Shown piece by piece: positions 39,226 through 44,626 of a stretch of 64,000 nucleotides of DNA (the stretch's first letter is position 1; each line of letters opens with the position of its first letter). The stretch is from positions 1-64,000 of the forward strand of contig NZ_NHMP01000001.1 in the NCBI RefSeq assembly GCF_002221595.1, read 5' to 3'. Both the position numbers and the translations under genes were made by a program. Source of the DNA: Turicimonas muris (GTDB taxonomy: Bacteria; Pseudomonadota; Gammaproteobacteria; Burkholderiales; Burkholderiaceae_F). Under the pieces are notes generated by a model. That model was not told the DNA's origin. It did not search any database and worked only from the letters and a program-made list of their open reading frames with translations.

Positions 39226-40428
39226 TTACAACACTTCTTTAATAGCCTTTGCAGTGTAGGCAACATTGGCCTTATTCAAAGAAGCCACGCAGATGCGACC
39301 GGACTTGACGGCATAAACGCCGAATTCATCTTTAAGTCTTTGAACTTGTTCAGGTGTCAAACGCGAGAAGGAGAACATACCGTGCTGATCTTCAATAAAC
39401 GAGAAGTCAACCTTTGCTCCTTCTTTCTTGAGTGCTTCAGCCAGGAGGTGACGCATTTCTTTAATGCGTTCGCGCATCCCTTTTAAATCTTCATGCCACT
39501 GCTGAAGAAGTACCGGGTCGTTAAGGACGGCAGAAACAATCTTGGCGCCGTGAGCAGGCGGATTAGAGTAGTTCGCACGAATGACGGACTTCAGTTTGGA
39601 GTTAACCCTCTTAGCTTCTTCTTCGGATTTGCAAACGACTGTGAGAGCGCCGATTCTTTCCCCGTACAGAGAGAAGGATTTAGAGAAGGAGTTGGAGACG
39701 AAGAAAGGAATGCCTGAATCAGCGAACTGTCTGATGGAGCCGGCGTCTTCGTTAAGTCCTGCACCAAAGCCTTGGTAGGCGATGTCTAAGAACGGAATGA
39801 GGCCTTTGTCGCGGCAAACTTCAACGACTTGTGCCCATTGTTCTTGGGTTAAATCAACACCGGTCGGGTTGTGACAGCAAGCATGAAGAATAACAACAGT
39901 ATCTTTCTTTAAGCCTTTGAGACATTCGAGCATGGCAGGGAAGTCGATTTCACCTGTCTTTTTATCATAATAAGGATAAGAACCTACTTTGAAACCGGCG
40001 GATTCAAAGATGGCAACGTGGTTTTGCCAAGTTGGGGCACTGACGACAGCTTCGGGATTCTTAAGGACTGTCGCCAAGAAGTCGGCGCCGACTTTAAGAG
40101 CACCTGTTCCGCCTAAAGACTGAACGGTGGCAGCACGTTTAGTCTTAACAACTTCAGAATCCGGCCCGAAGATTAATTTCTGAACGCCTGAAGTAAAGGC
40201 AGGTATACCGGAAATCGGTAAATAAGTATGAGGTGCACCTGCTTCAGCAAGTTTTTTTTCAGTCTGCTCAACTACCTTAAGTAAAGGAACCTTTCCTTCC
40301 TCTGTGCAGTAGACGCCAATACTTAAATTAACCTTTTCCTTACGAGGGTCAGTTTTGAACGCTTCGTTTAATCCCAGAATAGGATCGTCCGGAGCCATTT
40401 CAACGACATCAAAAACAGAGGTACTCAT
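39226..40428 (-). CDS. tyrB: aromatic-amino-acid / aspartate aminotransferase
   Basis: A 400-residue fold-type I PLP aminotransferase of subgroup I-alpha. N-terminal PDDPILGLNEAF, the VNLSIGVY segment, LHACCHNPTGVDLT (cofactor-contacting Asn), PFLDIAYQGFG and the Schiff-base Lys in SNSFSKSFSLYGERIG are all present, and the substrate-carboxylate Arg lies near the C-terminus (SRLTPEQ region). It exchanges amino groups between aspartate, tyrosine or phenylalanine and 2-oxoglutarate. The choice between AspC and TyrB is by resemblance only. Confidence 0.88.
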   Translation of the reverse strand: MSTSVFDVVEMAPDDPILGLNEAFKTDPRKEKVNLSIGVYCTEEGKVPLLKVVEQTEKKLAEAGAPHTYLPISGIPAFTSGVQKLIFGPDSEVVKTKRAATVQSLGGTGALKVGADFLATVLKNPEAVVSAPTWQNHVAIFESAGFKVGSYPYYDKKTGEIDFPAMLECLKGLKKDTVVILHACCHNPTGVDLTQEQWAQVVEVCRDKGLIPFLDIAYQGFGAGLNEDAGSIRQFADSGIPFFVSNSFSKSFSLYGERIGALTVVCKSEEEAKRVNSKLKSVIRANYSNPPAHGAKIVSAVLNDPVLLQQWHEDLKGMRERIKEMRHLLAEALKKEGAKVDFSFIEDQHGMFSFSRLTPEQVQRLKDEFGVYAVKSGRICVASLNKANVAYTAKAIKEVL

Positions 40429-40633
40429 CGTTTTTCCTTAAAAAGTTACTAATTGTGAAGATTTGAAACTTAACTTTATAAGACTAATCCAAAATTTGTA
40501 AGGAAATCCGATTCAGGAGAGCTTTTTTGTAGCTCAAAGGAGCGTTGACATGTAGAGATTTTCTTGATTGAAAAGAAAGGTCAAATTCCTCAGCGGTAGA
40601 GAGAGAAAATACGTGTGACCACAAAAGCAACAG

Positions 40634-40698
40634 GGGTTATTGTAACCAAACCCAAATTGAGAAAATTTATTGACAAATATCTCAGAGATATATAGACT
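40634..40698 (+). promoter_or_regulatory. promoter of the leader-speF-potE operon with a palindrome in the spacer
   Basis: A consensus -35 TTGACA at 40670-40675 is followed at 17 bp by TAGACT (40693-40698), a fair -10. The spacer is filled by the palindrome ATATCTC-A-GAGATAT (40677-40691), well placed for a repressor. A second small dyad GGTTA-TTG-TAACC (40634-40646) lies 24 bp upstream of the -35. The predicted start would give a 5' leader of about 40 nt before the leader ORF. The rest of the 240-bp gap to tyrB shows nothing else I can name. Confidence 0.65.
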
Positions 40699-40744
40699 TC
40701 TCTACGTCTGTTAAGACAATCTTAATTTTATTAGGAGTGCTGCT

Positions 40745-40867
40745 ATGTGCATCTTCAACATCGGCAAGTGCCTATTCAACATAGGCATGCGCTGCACTCG
40801 TCATCTGACGCAGTTTTCAATGCGCGATTGCTTTTCCTTCGATAAATTCAGCGGCACGGGCCGCTAG
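40745..40867 (+). CDS. SpeFL-like ornithine-sensing leader peptide
   Basis: A 40-codon ORF upstream of speF with AGGAG 7 bases before ATG 40745. Its C-terminal half matches the E. coli arrest peptide SpeFL (sequence recalled, not searched): R16, T18, H20, F24, R27, F30, F32 and F35 here fall at a constant +4 offset from R12, T14, H16, F20, R23, F26, F28 and F31 there, and both end with Arg before the stop codon. SpeFL binds ornithine inside the ribosome tunnel, blocks release at the stop codon and so turns on speF. The N-terminal third is unlike SpeFL and is a heptad duplication (CIFNIGK, CLFNIGM). The ORF is rich in Cys and Phe. Stop codon TAG lies in the attenuator hairpin. The function is inferred from sequence similarity and position. 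Confidence 0.8.
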   Translation: MCIFNIGKCLFNIGMRCTRHLTQFSMRDCFSFDKFSGTGR

Positions 40868-40888
40868 TCCTCTGCTCCAGCGGCTTTT
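40850..40888 (+). promoter_or_regulatory. attenuator overlapping the leader stop codon (mutually exclusive hairpins)
   Basis: Three elements follow one another: AGCGGC (40850-40855), GCCGCT (40860-40865) and AGCGGC (40879-40884) then TTTT. Segment 2 can pair with 1 (hairpin with ACGG loop) or with 3 (hairpin plus U run, terminator-like). The leader stop codon TAG begins at the last base of segment 2. A ribosome held at the stop codon would cover segments 1 and 2 and prevent the 2:3 hairpin, allowing read-through into speF. Beyond it, to about 40915, the RNA is C-rich and G-poor (CCCTCC, CCTAACC), which could also serve Rho. Mechanism inferred. Confidence 0.65.
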
Positions 40889-41060
40889 AGCCCTCCTGGA
40901 TCCTAACCATTTCCGGTTAAGTTCAAGTTTGTGATTCTCTATGTCTCTCAGTGGGAAGAGATTGGTCGACTATTGCCGTTCATAAACTTGGGCACAAAAT
41001 TCGCTTAAAAATTTTTTGATGGAGTTATTACTTTAAGTAATAAAACCAGAGGACACTATT
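40889..41060 (+). promoter_or_regulatory. speF 5' region after the attenuator
   Basis: A 172-nt stretch with no gene. It contains the small hairpin TAACC-GGTTA (40904-40919) and, just before the AGAGG ribosome binding site of speF, an AT-rich perfect palindrome TTATTACTT-T-AAGTAATAA (41025-41043). Confidence 0.5.
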
Positions 41061-43253
41061 ATGCATAAAATGAAAATTGCTGCTTCCCAGAAAATTAAAG
41101 ACATGCTTCAAGTTGAACGCGAAGTTGTAGATCTTGTTACAGCTGATTTAACTGAAGTTTCTGCAGTAGTTATTAGCCTTGACGACTACCGTAACGGTAA
41201 ATTGAAGAGAGTTGATGCAACTGCATTCGGTCTTCCAATTTTCTTAATGATGGATTCCGATCAGGAAACACCTAAAGAATTGATCGGCCGTATCGTTGGT
41301 GTTATCAATGACGACCCAACAAACCGCCGTCTCTATGGCCGTCAAATCGACGAAGCTGCTAGAGGATATGAAAGCAAAGTTCTTCCTCCGTTCTTTGGGG
41401 CTCTTACACACTATGTAAGACAGGGTAAAGCACAATTTGACTGCCCGGGACACCAAGGCGGTTCTTATTTCCGCCGTCATCCGGCAGGCCGCGCTTTTTA
41501 TGACTTCTTCGGTGAAGAAATTTTCCGTTCCGACCTCTGCAACGCGGACGTTTCCATGGGAGACCTTTTGATTCACGAAGGCGCTCCATGCGAATCTCAA
41601 AAAGCAGCTGCCAAGATTTACAACGCTGATAAGACTTATTTCGTTTTGAACGGTACATCCGCTTCTAATAAGGTTGTGCTGAATGCTTGTTTAACACCGG
41701 GAGACTTGGTTCTTTACGATAGAAATAACCACAAGTCCATTAACCACGGTGCTCTTCTTCAGGCTGGTGCAACACCGATTTATTTGGAAACTGCACGCAA
41801 TCCGTATGGATTTATTGGCGGTATTGATGAAAAATGCTTTGACGAAGCTTACTTAAGAAAGCTGGTTGCCGAAAAAGTTCCTGAAAAAGCAAATGCTAAG
41901 AGACCGTTTAGACTTGCCGTTATTCAGCTCGGTACTTATGACGGAACTATTTACAACGCCCGTCAAGTAGTTGACAAGATCGGCCATCTCTGTGATTACA
42001 TTCTGTTCGATTCCGCATGGGTTGGTTACGAACAGTTTATTCCAATGATGAGAGATTGCTCTCCATTGCTTTTGGATTTGGGACCAGAAGACCCAGGCAT
42101 CTTCGTTACTCAGTCTGTTCATAAGCAACAAGCAGGTTTTTCACAGACTTCTCAGATTCACAAGAAAGACTCTCATATCAAGGGCCAAGACAGATACATT
42201 CCTCATAAAGTCGTTAACAACGCCTTTATGATGCACGCTTCTACAAGCCCGTTCTATCCTCTTTTTGCCGCTCTTGACGTCAATGCCAAGATGCAGGAAG
42301 GTGAAGCAGGAAGAAGATTGTGGGCCGATTGCGTCAGAACAACTATTGAAGCTCGCAAACTTCTATTGGCAACTTGCCACTACATCAAGCCGTTTATTCC
42401 TACAAAGGTTAACGGAACTCCATGGCAGGATTATCCGACAGAACAGATTGCTACAGATCTGAACTTCTTCAAGTTTGGTCCCGGTGAAAAATGGCATGCC
42501 TTCGAAGGATACGGTCAGGATCAATACATGGTCGATCCATGCAAGTTCTTACTCACAACTCCGGGTATCAATCCTGAAACAGGTGAATACGAAGAGTTCG
42601 GCGTTCCGGCAACTATTTTGGCCAACTACTTGCGCGAAAACGGTATCATTCCTGAAAAGAACGATTTGAATTCCATTTTGTTCTTGATGACTCCTGCCGA
42701 AGACAAAGAAAAGATGGACCATCTGGTTACACAGATTGCCCGCTTCGAAAGATTGCTTGACGAAAATGCAGCTCTTGAAGATGTTCTGCCAAGTGTTTAC
42801 AAGGCCAATGAAGAACGTTACAAGGGCTATACAATCAGACAGCTCTGCCAAGAAATGCACGATTTCTACAAAGAGAGAAACATTAAGGAAATTCAAAAGC
42901 AAATGTTCCGCTTTGATTATTTCCCGAAATCTGTTGTTAATCCGCAAGAAGCTCACTTTGCCTTCCTTCGCGGCCAAACTGATCTCATTCCAATGGAGCA
43001 GGCAGAAGGCAGAGTCGCTGCTGAAGGAGCTCTTCCTTATCCACCGGGAGTTCTTTGCTGCTTCCCGGGCGAAGTTTGGGGTGGTCCGGTTCTGCAGTAC
43101 TTCTTAGCATGGGAAGAAGCTATTAACCGTATGCCTGGATTCGCTCCGGAGCTGCAGGGTGTATACCTCAAGAACGAAGACGGCAAGAAGAGAGTTTATT
43201 GCTACGTCCTCAAAGAAGAGGTTGCAAAACGCTTGTCTCAGCCTAAAGCGTAA
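41061..43253 (+). CDS. speF: inducible ornithine decarboxylase
   Basis: A 730-residue fold-type I PLP decarboxylase with the N-terminal wing domain (about 1-110), the PLP domain and C-terminal domain of the bacterial Orn/Lys/Arg group. The Schiff-base Lys355 is in VTQSVHKQQAGFSQTSQIHKK and the surrounding sequence, ASTSPFYPLFAALDVNAK, is characteristic of SpeF/SpeC ornithine decarboxylases rather than of LdcC or AdiA. It converts ornithine and a proton to putrescine and CO2. It is followed by the ornithine/putrescine antiporter gene, the usual acid-resistance and polyamine pair, and preceded by a SpeFL-like leader. Confidence 0.95.
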   Translation: MHKMKIAASQKIKDMLQVEREVVDLVTADLTEVSAVVISLDDYRNGKLKRVDATAFGLPIFLMMDSDQETPKELIGRIVGVINDDPTNRRLYGRQIDEAARGYESKVLPPFFGALTHYVRQGKAQFDCPGHQGGSYFRRHPAGRAFYDFFGEEIFRSDLCNADVSMGDLLIHEGAPCESQKAAAKIYNADKTYFVLNGTSASNKVVLNACLTPGDLVLYDRNNHKSINHGALLQAGATPIYLETARNPYGFIGGIDEKCFDEAYLRKLVAEKVPEKANAKRPFRLAVIQLGTYDGTIYNARQVVDKIGHLCDYILFDSAWVGYEQFIPMMRDCSPLLLDLGPEDPGIFVTQSVHKQQAGFSQTSQIHKKDSHIKGQDRYIPHKVVNNAFMMHASTSPFYPLFAALDVNAKMQEGEAGRRLWADCVRTTIEARKLLLATCHYIKPFIPTKVNGTPWQDYPTEQIATDLNFFKFGPGEKWHAFEGYGQDQYMVDPCKFLLTTPGINPETGEYEEFGVPATILANYLRENGIIPEKNDLNSILFLMTPAEDKEKMDHLVTQIARFERLLDENAALEDVLPSVYKANEERYKGYTIRQLCQEMHDFYKERNIKEIQKQMFRFDYFPKSVVNPQEAHFAFLRGQTDLIPMEQAEGRVAAEGALPYPPGVLCCFPGEVWGGPVLQYFLAWEEAINRMPGFAPELQGVYLKNEDGKKRVYCYVLKEEVAKRLSQPKA

Positions 43254-43318: not shown

Positions 43319-44626
43319 ATGTCTGAAAATCGTGCAAAGATGTCCGTCACGCAGTTGACACTGCTTACTGCTATTAATATGATGGGCTCCGGTATTGTTA
43401 TGCTTCCTACAAAGTTGGCAGAAGTGGGAACTATCTCAATCCTCTCTTGGTTAATTACCGCTTTAGGTTCTTTGTGCTTGGCTTATGCATTTGCTAAGTG
43501 CGGTATGTTCAGTAAACGTCCAGGTATGGGCGGCTATACAGAATACGCATTCGGTAAGGCCGGTAACTTCATGGCAAACTACACTTACGGTGTATCTTTG
43601 CTGTTTGCTAATATCGCTATTGCTATTACATGTGTCGGTTATGGCGCTGAATTCTTGGAAATGGAACTAAGCCCGGTAGCCGTGTGTATTTCTACAATCG
43701 TTGTGCTTTGGCTTTGCACAGTAGCAAACTTTGCCGGTGCCTCTATTACCGGTAAATTCAGCTCGGTTGCTGTTTGGTGCGCCATCCTCCCGGTTCTTTG
43801 CTTGTCCGTTATCGGCTGGTTCTGGTTCAGCCCGACAATGTACATCGAAGCTTGGAACCCTCATAACGAACCGTTCTTTAGCGCTGTCGGTGCTTCGATT
43901 TCCATGACTTTGTGGGCCTTCCTTGGATTGGAAAGCGCTTGTGCAAACTCTGACGCCGTTGACAATCCTGAAAAGAATGTTCCAATCGCAGTATTGGCTG
44001 CTACGATTGGTGTGGCAATCATATACATTGTTTCCACCAACATCATCGCCGGTATTGTTCCTAACGCAGAACTCGTGAAATCTAATGCTCCGTTCGGTTT
44101 GACATTTACCATGATGTTCAACTCCACAATCGGTAAGATCGTCATGTTCATGCTGGTTCTGTCTTGTGCGGGTTCTACTCTTGGCTGGCAGTTCACAATT
44201 GCTAAAGTATTCCAGCAGTCTGCTGTTGACGGTTTCTTCCCGAAAGCCTTTGCTAAAGTTAACAAATGGGAAGCTCCGGTTCTCGGTATGCTGATTATTG
44301 TTGCAGTTCAAACAGGTTTCTGCTTCATGACAATCAGCCCTGAATTGTTCAAGCAGTTCAACAGACTCGTCGACCTTGCTGTTGTGACAAACATCATGCC
44401 TTACATCCTGTCTATGGCAGCTCTGCCGGTTATCATGAAGGCAGCTCATGTTGAAGTCACAAAAGCTAAAGTGTATGTCTTTATCGGTTTCGTAGGTGCG
44501 GTTTACAGTTTCTACGCTTTGTTCTCCACCGGCATCAACGAAGTTTTCTGGGGTTCTTTAGCTACATTCCTCGGTTGGACTCTCTGGGGCTTTATCGCAC
44601 CGAAGTTCAGTAAAAATGAAGCTTAA
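43319..44626 (+). CDS. potE: putrescine-ornithine antiporter
   Basis: A 435-residue APC-superfamily transporter with about 12 transmembrane helices. N-terminal MSVTQLTLLTAINMMGSGIVMLP is the basic amino-acid/polyamine antiporter signature, with the unwound helix GSGI. Paired with SpeF it imports ornithine and exports putrescine, consuming protons and generating membrane potential. It starts 65 bp after speF and ends before a terminator. Confidence 0.93.
   Translation: MSENRAKMSVTQLTLLTAINMMGSGIVMLPTKLAEVGTISILSWLITALGSLCLAYAFAKCGMFSKRPGMGGYTEYAFGKAGNFMANYTYGVSLLFANIAIAITCVGYGAEFLEMELSPVAVCISTIVVLWLCTVANFAGASITGKFSSVAVWCAILPVLCLSVIGWFWFSPTMYIEAWNPHNEPFFSAVGASISMTLWAFLGLESACANSDAVDNPEKNVPIAVLAATIGVAIIYIVSTNIIAGIVPNAELVKSNAPFGLTFTMMFNSTIGKIVMFMLVLSCAGSTLGWQFTIAKVFQQSAVDGFFPKAFAKVNKWEAPVLGMLIIVAVQTGFCFMTISPELFKQFNRLVDLAVVTNIMPYILSMAALPVIMKAAHVEVTKAKVYVFIGFVGAVYSFYALFSTGINEVFWGSLATFLGWTLWGFIAPKFSKNEA

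Follow-up and report, generated by a model that had tools for sequence, protein, structure and literature searches.

To our knowledge, few bacterial arrest peptides are known that sense a small metabolite. The closest described system to the locus reported here is SpeFL/ORF34 of E. coli and Salmonella (PF10940, PDB 6TC3/6TBV), for which ornithine sensing and a block of RF1 have both been reported (PMC8429421, PMC7815308). The family was described as conserved among gammaproteobacteria in PMC6386406, the main text of which contains neither "betaproteo" nor "burkholderi". In the open-licence literature, we found no report of SpeFL outside the Gammaproteobacteria or from Sutterellaceae. Salmonella orf34 is also a precedent for masking of the Shine-Dalgarno (SD) sequence, since compensatory mutations support base pairing between leader codons and the speF start (PMC6386406). 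Two other systems show a partial likeness. The TnaC leader also senses a metabolite and undergoes arrest at termination (PMC8429421), but its ligand, tryptophan, and its operon are different. The alphaproteobacterial speF leader RNA motif (Corbino et al., cited in PMC6386406; PMC1273637) also precedes speF-type ornithine decarboxylase genes, but it is an RNA motif and not a peptide, and an Rfam search of positions 40300-41500 of our sequence gave no family match except for one chance microRNA match (E 0.67, with a score well under the gathering threshold).

The window, i.e. the whole stretch of 64,000 bp that was analysed, is from Turicimonas muris. The initial annotation had assumed a betaproteobacterial host, in agreement with the NCBI taxonomy (Betaproteobacteria, Burkholderiales, Sutterellaceae). 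On the + strand the window contains speF, encoding an inducible ornithine decarboxylase (41061-43253; TIGR04301 1384 bits, cut-off 1310), followed on the same strand by potE, encoding a putrescine-ornithine antiporter (43319-44626; PRK10655 707 bits with a cut-off of 409, TIGR04299 674 bits with a cut-off of 560). Upstream of speF lies a leader ORF of 40 codons (40745-40867, + strand) with TAG as stop codon and the translation MCIFNIGKCLFNIGMRCTRHLTQFSMRDCFSFDKFSGTGR. An AGGAG SD (40733-40737, + strand) is located 7 nt before its ATG. The start of speF follows 316 nt after the leader start, with a gap of 193 nt between leader stop and speF, and the ORF, its good ribosome binding site and the spacing were all verified as initially annotated. 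SD-like bases are also present 5' of the likely starts in most of the listed leaders of other loci. In what follows, "the family" stands for Sutterellaceae. A putative sigma-70-like promoter, TTGACA-17-TAGACT (40670-40698, + strand), ends 46 nt upstream of the leader ATG; it is a consensus match only, and the region 39500-41500 contains 3 such promoter-like matches, where 2.2 are expected. No NCBIfam family was found for the leader peptide.

The position of a short ORF before speF-potE is shared with SpeFL/ORF34, and so is the core R-x-T-x-H-[LI]-x-x-F-x-x-R-x-x-F-x-F-x-x-F, with equal spacing. The eight residues pointed out initially (R16, T18, H20, F24, R27, F30, F32 and F35) do match E. coli SpeFL at a single offset of 4. 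At this offset all six residues of the SpeFL core (Arg12, His16, Arg23, Phe26, Phe28 and Phe31) are found in the window peptide, and the conserved stretch R16-F35 (40790-40849, + strand) aligns to E. coli R12-F31 without gaps. BLASTP of the window peptide against E. coli SpeFL (NC_000913) gave 8/23 identities, also without gaps. Using a profile of 34 distinct gammaproteobacterial peptides, which contains no Sutterellaceae member, the window peptide scored 20.2 bits and the best shuffle 11.9 bits (20,000 shuffles made, 19,250 scored, first Met kept). When the whole 2.9 Mb genome of the strain was searched with a gammaproteobacteria-only profile of 12 rows, the leader ORF was the sole match at E ≤ 10 (E 0.0016). 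Because such a profile lists the leader as the only match in its own genome, the leader is, judged by these comparisons, a homologue of SpeFL and no chance match.

The same held for the relatives. A gammaproteobacteria-only profile, applied to the ORFs upstream of the 35 speF loci of the family, retrieved 14 leaders (E 2.3e-9 to 7.5e-5), including the window leader (19.5 bits, E 2.6e-5), and the next ORF scored only 5.6 bits. PF10940 (SpeFL) was the only Pfam family listed for the window peptide at E ≤ 10, at 17.2 bits (E 0.0045), which is below the gathering score of 25. One leader from the Aphodousia group, L025, passes the gathering score (28.1 bits, E 1.7e-6), two further family leaders stay under it (19.0 and 18.7 bits), and all 12 distinct family leaders match PF10940 at E ≤ 1, the best with 2.1e-7. 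The idea of a homologous but divergent SpeFL is therefore upheld, the homology by the gammaproteobacteria-only profile, PF10940 and the search of the own genome, and the divergence by the departures described below. We regard the leader as a variant of SpeFL, which is itself known.

Comparison with the leader of Turicimonas sp. gave a pS of 0.70 and a pN of 0.11 (37 codons; Fisher p 7.5e-8), and with that of Parasutterella muris a pS of 0.73 and a pN of 0.10 (37 codons; Fisher p 1.1e-8). L045, the most distant of the five leaders compared, gave 0.77 and 0.26, respectively. A dN/dS near 1, which had been named as an argument against the annotation, was not what these two nearest relatives showed (pN about 0.1, pS about 0.7), and the pattern indicates that the leader peptide is under strong purifying selection.

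For the comparisons within the family 12 of the 14 leaders were used; L033, a near copy of L034, and L036, which lacks a stop codon at the expected position, were omitted. The N-terminal third of the peptide had been thought to occur only in this genome. This proved incorrect, as it is a tandem 7-codon duplication, CIFNIGK / CLFNIGM (40748-40789, + strand; 17/21 nt identical), that is common to relatives and forms an N-terminal extension absent from SpeFL/ORF34. In the alignment, judged by eye, both units are present in five of the 12 leaders and a degraded pair in a sixth, two Sutterella leaders have one unit and none was recognised in the four Aphodousia-group leaders.

Within the core, R12, H16 and R23 of SpeFL are retained in all 12 family leaders; in window numbering, H20 and C29 are invariant among them and F24 and F30 nearly so. 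His10 is present in 34/34 gammaproteobacterial peptides, whereas the family leaders have Gly (8) or Val (4) at this position, the window peptide having Gly14. Arg13, likewise present in 34/34 gammaproteobacterial peptides, is Cys17 in the window, the sole replacement among the 12 family leaders. Position 30 is Phe or Leu in 26/34 gammaproteobacterial peptides and Arg or Lys in 10/12 family leaders. The Arg-stop end noted initially is a true feature of the window and E. coli peptides, but it does not hold as a conserved trait: only 2/12 family leaders end in Arg, and none has an Arg at the position of Arg34. With His10 and Arg13 changed in the presumed sensor, caution is needed, and the same ligand strength should not be assumed.

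Defining SpeF loci by TIGR04301 at E ≤ 1e-200, we found SpeF in 32 of the 67 family genomes (35 loci). A search of related genomes 5' of speF (≤1.5 kb upstream, as far as the sequence reaches), suggested together with the initial annotation, revealed related leaders at 14 of these 35 loci. They belong to five genera: Turicimonas (2), Parasutterella (3, of which one is broken), an Aphodousia-type genus (4; named members mostly Candidatus Aphodousia), Sutterella (4) and another genus (1). A family-profile search of the 67 genomes gave 14 strong matches (E ≤ 1.5e-14), all 14 upstream of a speF, and nothing further better than E 0.005, so no orphan leader copies were seen. No leader was found at the other 21 loci, one of which (L058) is a speF fragment; several of the leaderless loci have ample intergenic space.

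At order level, SpeF was present in 10 of 399 sampled genomes, 4 of them in Sutterellaceae, and at the six SpeF loci outside the family no leader was seen within 1,500 bases 5' of the gene. PF10940 gave 6 weak matches, none above the cut-off, over 369 genomes of the class, of which only 4 carry SpeF at E ≤ 1e-200. Among the best 80 of 580 SpeF relatives, 62 of the 64 non-family loci had a leader; this set is biased to close relatives of SpeF because of the way it was drawn, and apart from one record titled Chryseobacterium it consists of gammaproteobacteria. In a quick SpeF tree (56 rows, midpoint root, gammaproteobacterial rows thinned by hand) the 34 SpeF of the family form a single clade (95), which is joined first by a long-branched, leaderless gammaproteobacterial row and then by Enterobacterales. 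Inside the family clade the leader is patchy, with 6 changes. In our reading of this pattern the leader-speF unit arrived once, in a common ancestor, be it by transfer or by vertical descent, and was followed by losses. The leader appears to be dispensable, as 21/35 family loci are leaderless and in Parasutterella excrementihominis a frameshifted leader precedes an open speF.

The P. excrementihominis leader (L036, identical to L075) lacks 11 nt within its duplicated N-terminal part; its core is no longer in frame with the usual ATG, and a stop codon is missing from the expected position. This is either a natural loss or an assembly fault. Genome G025, with a Sutterella genus code, carries two speF copies (L041/L054), one with a leader 601 nt upstream and one without. 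The locus titled Chryseobacterium sp. (L127, CACSKA010000002.1) is an enterobacterial speFL-speF locus; its leader is identical to the one in a Citrobacter record (L133), which probably reflects a wrong title or a mixed assembly.

The initial annotation had also proposed an attenuator. In the window, neither a terminator scan nor a stem plus T-run script detected an intrinsic terminator, and a terminator after the leader was rejected. Over 17 leaders the script gave a match in three (L039, inside the coding part, L030 and E. coli L060). Folding pointed elsewhere. The stretch 40700-41090 (391 nt) has a z of -4.8, with 0/100 shuffles as stable, and contains a predicted helix in which GTCCTCTG (40867-40874, + strand) pairs with CAGAGGAC (41047-41054, + strand), the SD region of speF, with 8/8 matches. 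This putative anti-SD, identified by prediction and covariation only, shares its first base with the last base (G) of the leader TAG; four copies of the 8-mer are present in the window, both strands counted, where 1.7 are expected. Since the local fold of 40840-40960 by itself is unremarkable (z -0.6), the structure that matters would be the long-range one. For SpeFL/ORF34, too, pairing of the speF ribosome site with part of the leader is predicted (1.0 in Salmonella L099, 0.66 in E. coli), but there the anti-SD lies inside the coding part, whereas that of the window overlaps the stop; one gammaproteobacterial locus, Cedecea L132, resembles the window in having its pairing at the stop (0.89).

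Relatives share this arrangement in part. The predicted probability that the speF SD pairs with the stretch from the stop to +15 was 1.0 for the window, 0.75 for L039, 0.80 for L040 and 0.86 for L031, and in 8/12 family leaders the SD is mostly not paired with this stretch. Out of 300 shuffles, a duplex as good was formed by 2 for the window, 3 for L040, 2 for L031 and 1 for L041; the remaining 8/12 duplexes, among them those of L039 and L034, were unexceptional (42-285 of 300 shuffles as good). Pairing is kept with changed letters in L039 (UCCCC / GGGGA), L034 (UAAUCCUC / GAGGAUUA) and L031 (UAAGCCUU / AAGGCUUA). In a cognate test on the 12 family leaders (20,000 permutations, six blocks tried), two blocks, both beginning at the stop, gave better pairing for own leader/SD combinations than for swapped ones (p 0.007 and 0.009, values that ignore relatedness), and the four other blocks showed no effect (p 0.58-0.83). 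In gammaproteobacteria, where five blocks and 16 of 21 loci hand-picked from 63 were used (L129, L089, L088, L150 and L092 were omitted), the test gave a weak positive signal in two blocks, the final 30 bases of the coding part (p 0.031) and stop to +15 (p 0.023), in accordance with the compensatory-mutation work in Salmonella (PMC6386406).

Masking a ribosome-sized footprint at 23 positions of the window opened the SD most when the mask sat on the stop (0.15) or 12 nt past it (0.25), with all other positions at ≤0.06. The absolute opening is small: from 0.00 to 0.15 with the stop masked, or to 0.29 with a queued ribosome. Among six family leaders, the stop position stood out in L038, L040 and L031; in L039 the effect was not specific (equalled at four of 24 slid positions), and none was seen in L042 or L026. 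Taken together, these models suggest an anti-SD that overlaps the leader stop and co-varies in some relatives, a pairing that is not general. Three Aphodousia-group loci (L025, L026 and L027) have a short hairpin directly 3' of the leader stop and no good anti-SD match there.

The comparisons thus point to a conserved, selected SpeFL-homologous peptide before speF, and to RNA at its stop that is complementary to the speF ribosome-binding site. The ORF probably encodes an arrest peptide of the SpeFL type that has diverged and regulates speF-potE in cis. Without inducer, the leader would be translated and the ribosome released fast, upon which GTCCTCTG would pair with CAGAGGAC and the speF start would be hidden. 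The untranslated stretch may also let Rho in; the 90 nt from the leader stop contain C at 0.28 and G at 0.20, a possible hint of Rho action. With plentiful ornithine, which we infer to be the ligand from the operon and the homology, the nascent chain and the exit tunnel would capture it via the R-x-T-x-H region, and the Phe-rich end would block release or elongation. A ribosome halted on the stop or immediately ahead of it would cover the anti-SD, and speF-potE would be expressed. Ornithine-dependent stalling at or near the leader stop, which would uncover the speF start, is most likely. The leaders of these gut commensals would then be naturally selected variants of the presumed ornithine pocket (His10, Arg13), of the arrest point (moved stop) and of the N-terminus (duplication), and they suggest that ornithine switches the putrescine output of gut Sutterellaceae, a switch that some relatives have lost.

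Other explanations of the same peptide were weighed. Because His10 is lost and, in the window, Arg13 as well, the leader could be a re-tuned member of the family, with a constitutive pause or with another cationic metabolite (putrescine, arginine or lysine) as ligand. In favour of this, the loss of His10 is uniform in the 12 family leaders and Arg13 is replaced in the window alone; against it, the window operon still encodes an ornithine decarboxylase and a putrescine-ornithine antiporter, and R12, H16 and R23 are conserved. We consider re-tuning quite improbable. Slightly less probable again is a codon-starvation attenuator, in which the ribosome pauses at the Arg codons R16 and R19 when arginyl-tRNA is scarce and the peptide sequence itself is irrelevant. 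Arginine control has been proposed for Salmonella orf34 with data on codons 12-13 (PMC6386406), and R-R-x-R is found in 9/12 distinct family leaders, five of which have R-R-T-R; in the window, however, the Arg pair is broken (R-C), the most conserved positions of the family include the non-Arg residues H20, C29, F24 and F30, and pN is far under pS across the whole peptide. Ornithine control and arginine control are not mutually exclusive. That the leader of this strain is a decayed relic of SpeFL without function is very improbable: the Cys for Arg13 exclusive to the window, the broken P. excrementihominis leader and the leaderless loci would fit, but the frame is open, the SD and both tandem units are intact, the pN against the nearest relatives is low and the anti-SD matches in full.

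The point of arrest deserves separate consideration. Like SpeFL, the leader has an RF1-type stop, and the 76 leaders compared (63 gammaproteobacterial and 13 from the family, many closely related) all end in TAA or TAG and none in TGA. This speaks for a role of RF1 and fits the RF1 block reported for SpeFL (PMC8429421); for the 13 family leaders alone the absence of TGA is weak, since TGA accounts for only 7/37 stops in the window. The stop of the window leader lies 10 and not 8 residues past the Phe26 equivalent. In the family this distance is 9-11 (nine leaders) or 17 (three), a displacement of 1-9 codons further on compared with SpeFL. In gammaproteobacteria it is 8 in 28/34 peptides and 9, 13 or 15 in the other six, and is thus not strictly defining. 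Should arrest depend on a constant distance to the peptidyl-transferase centre, the leaders with 17 could not arrest at their stop. It is conceivable, although on balance unlikely, that in Sutterellaceae the SpeFL fold is uncoupled from the stop, with elongation arrest at a sense codon 1-9 codons before it and a pocket rebuilt without His10. If true, effector geometry, and not the release factor, would set the arrest point in natural SpeFL variants. Some leaders of gammaproteobacteria, from Shimwellia, Yersinia and Shewanella (L088, L092, L142 and L144), also have a stop shifted 5-7 codons further, and that of Yersinia proxima has lost Arg12 as well. In two Salmonella enterica subspecies (L099 and L109) the leader stop is TAG, whereas the legend to Fig 1 of PMC6386406 gives UGA for orf34 of Salmonella Typhimurium.
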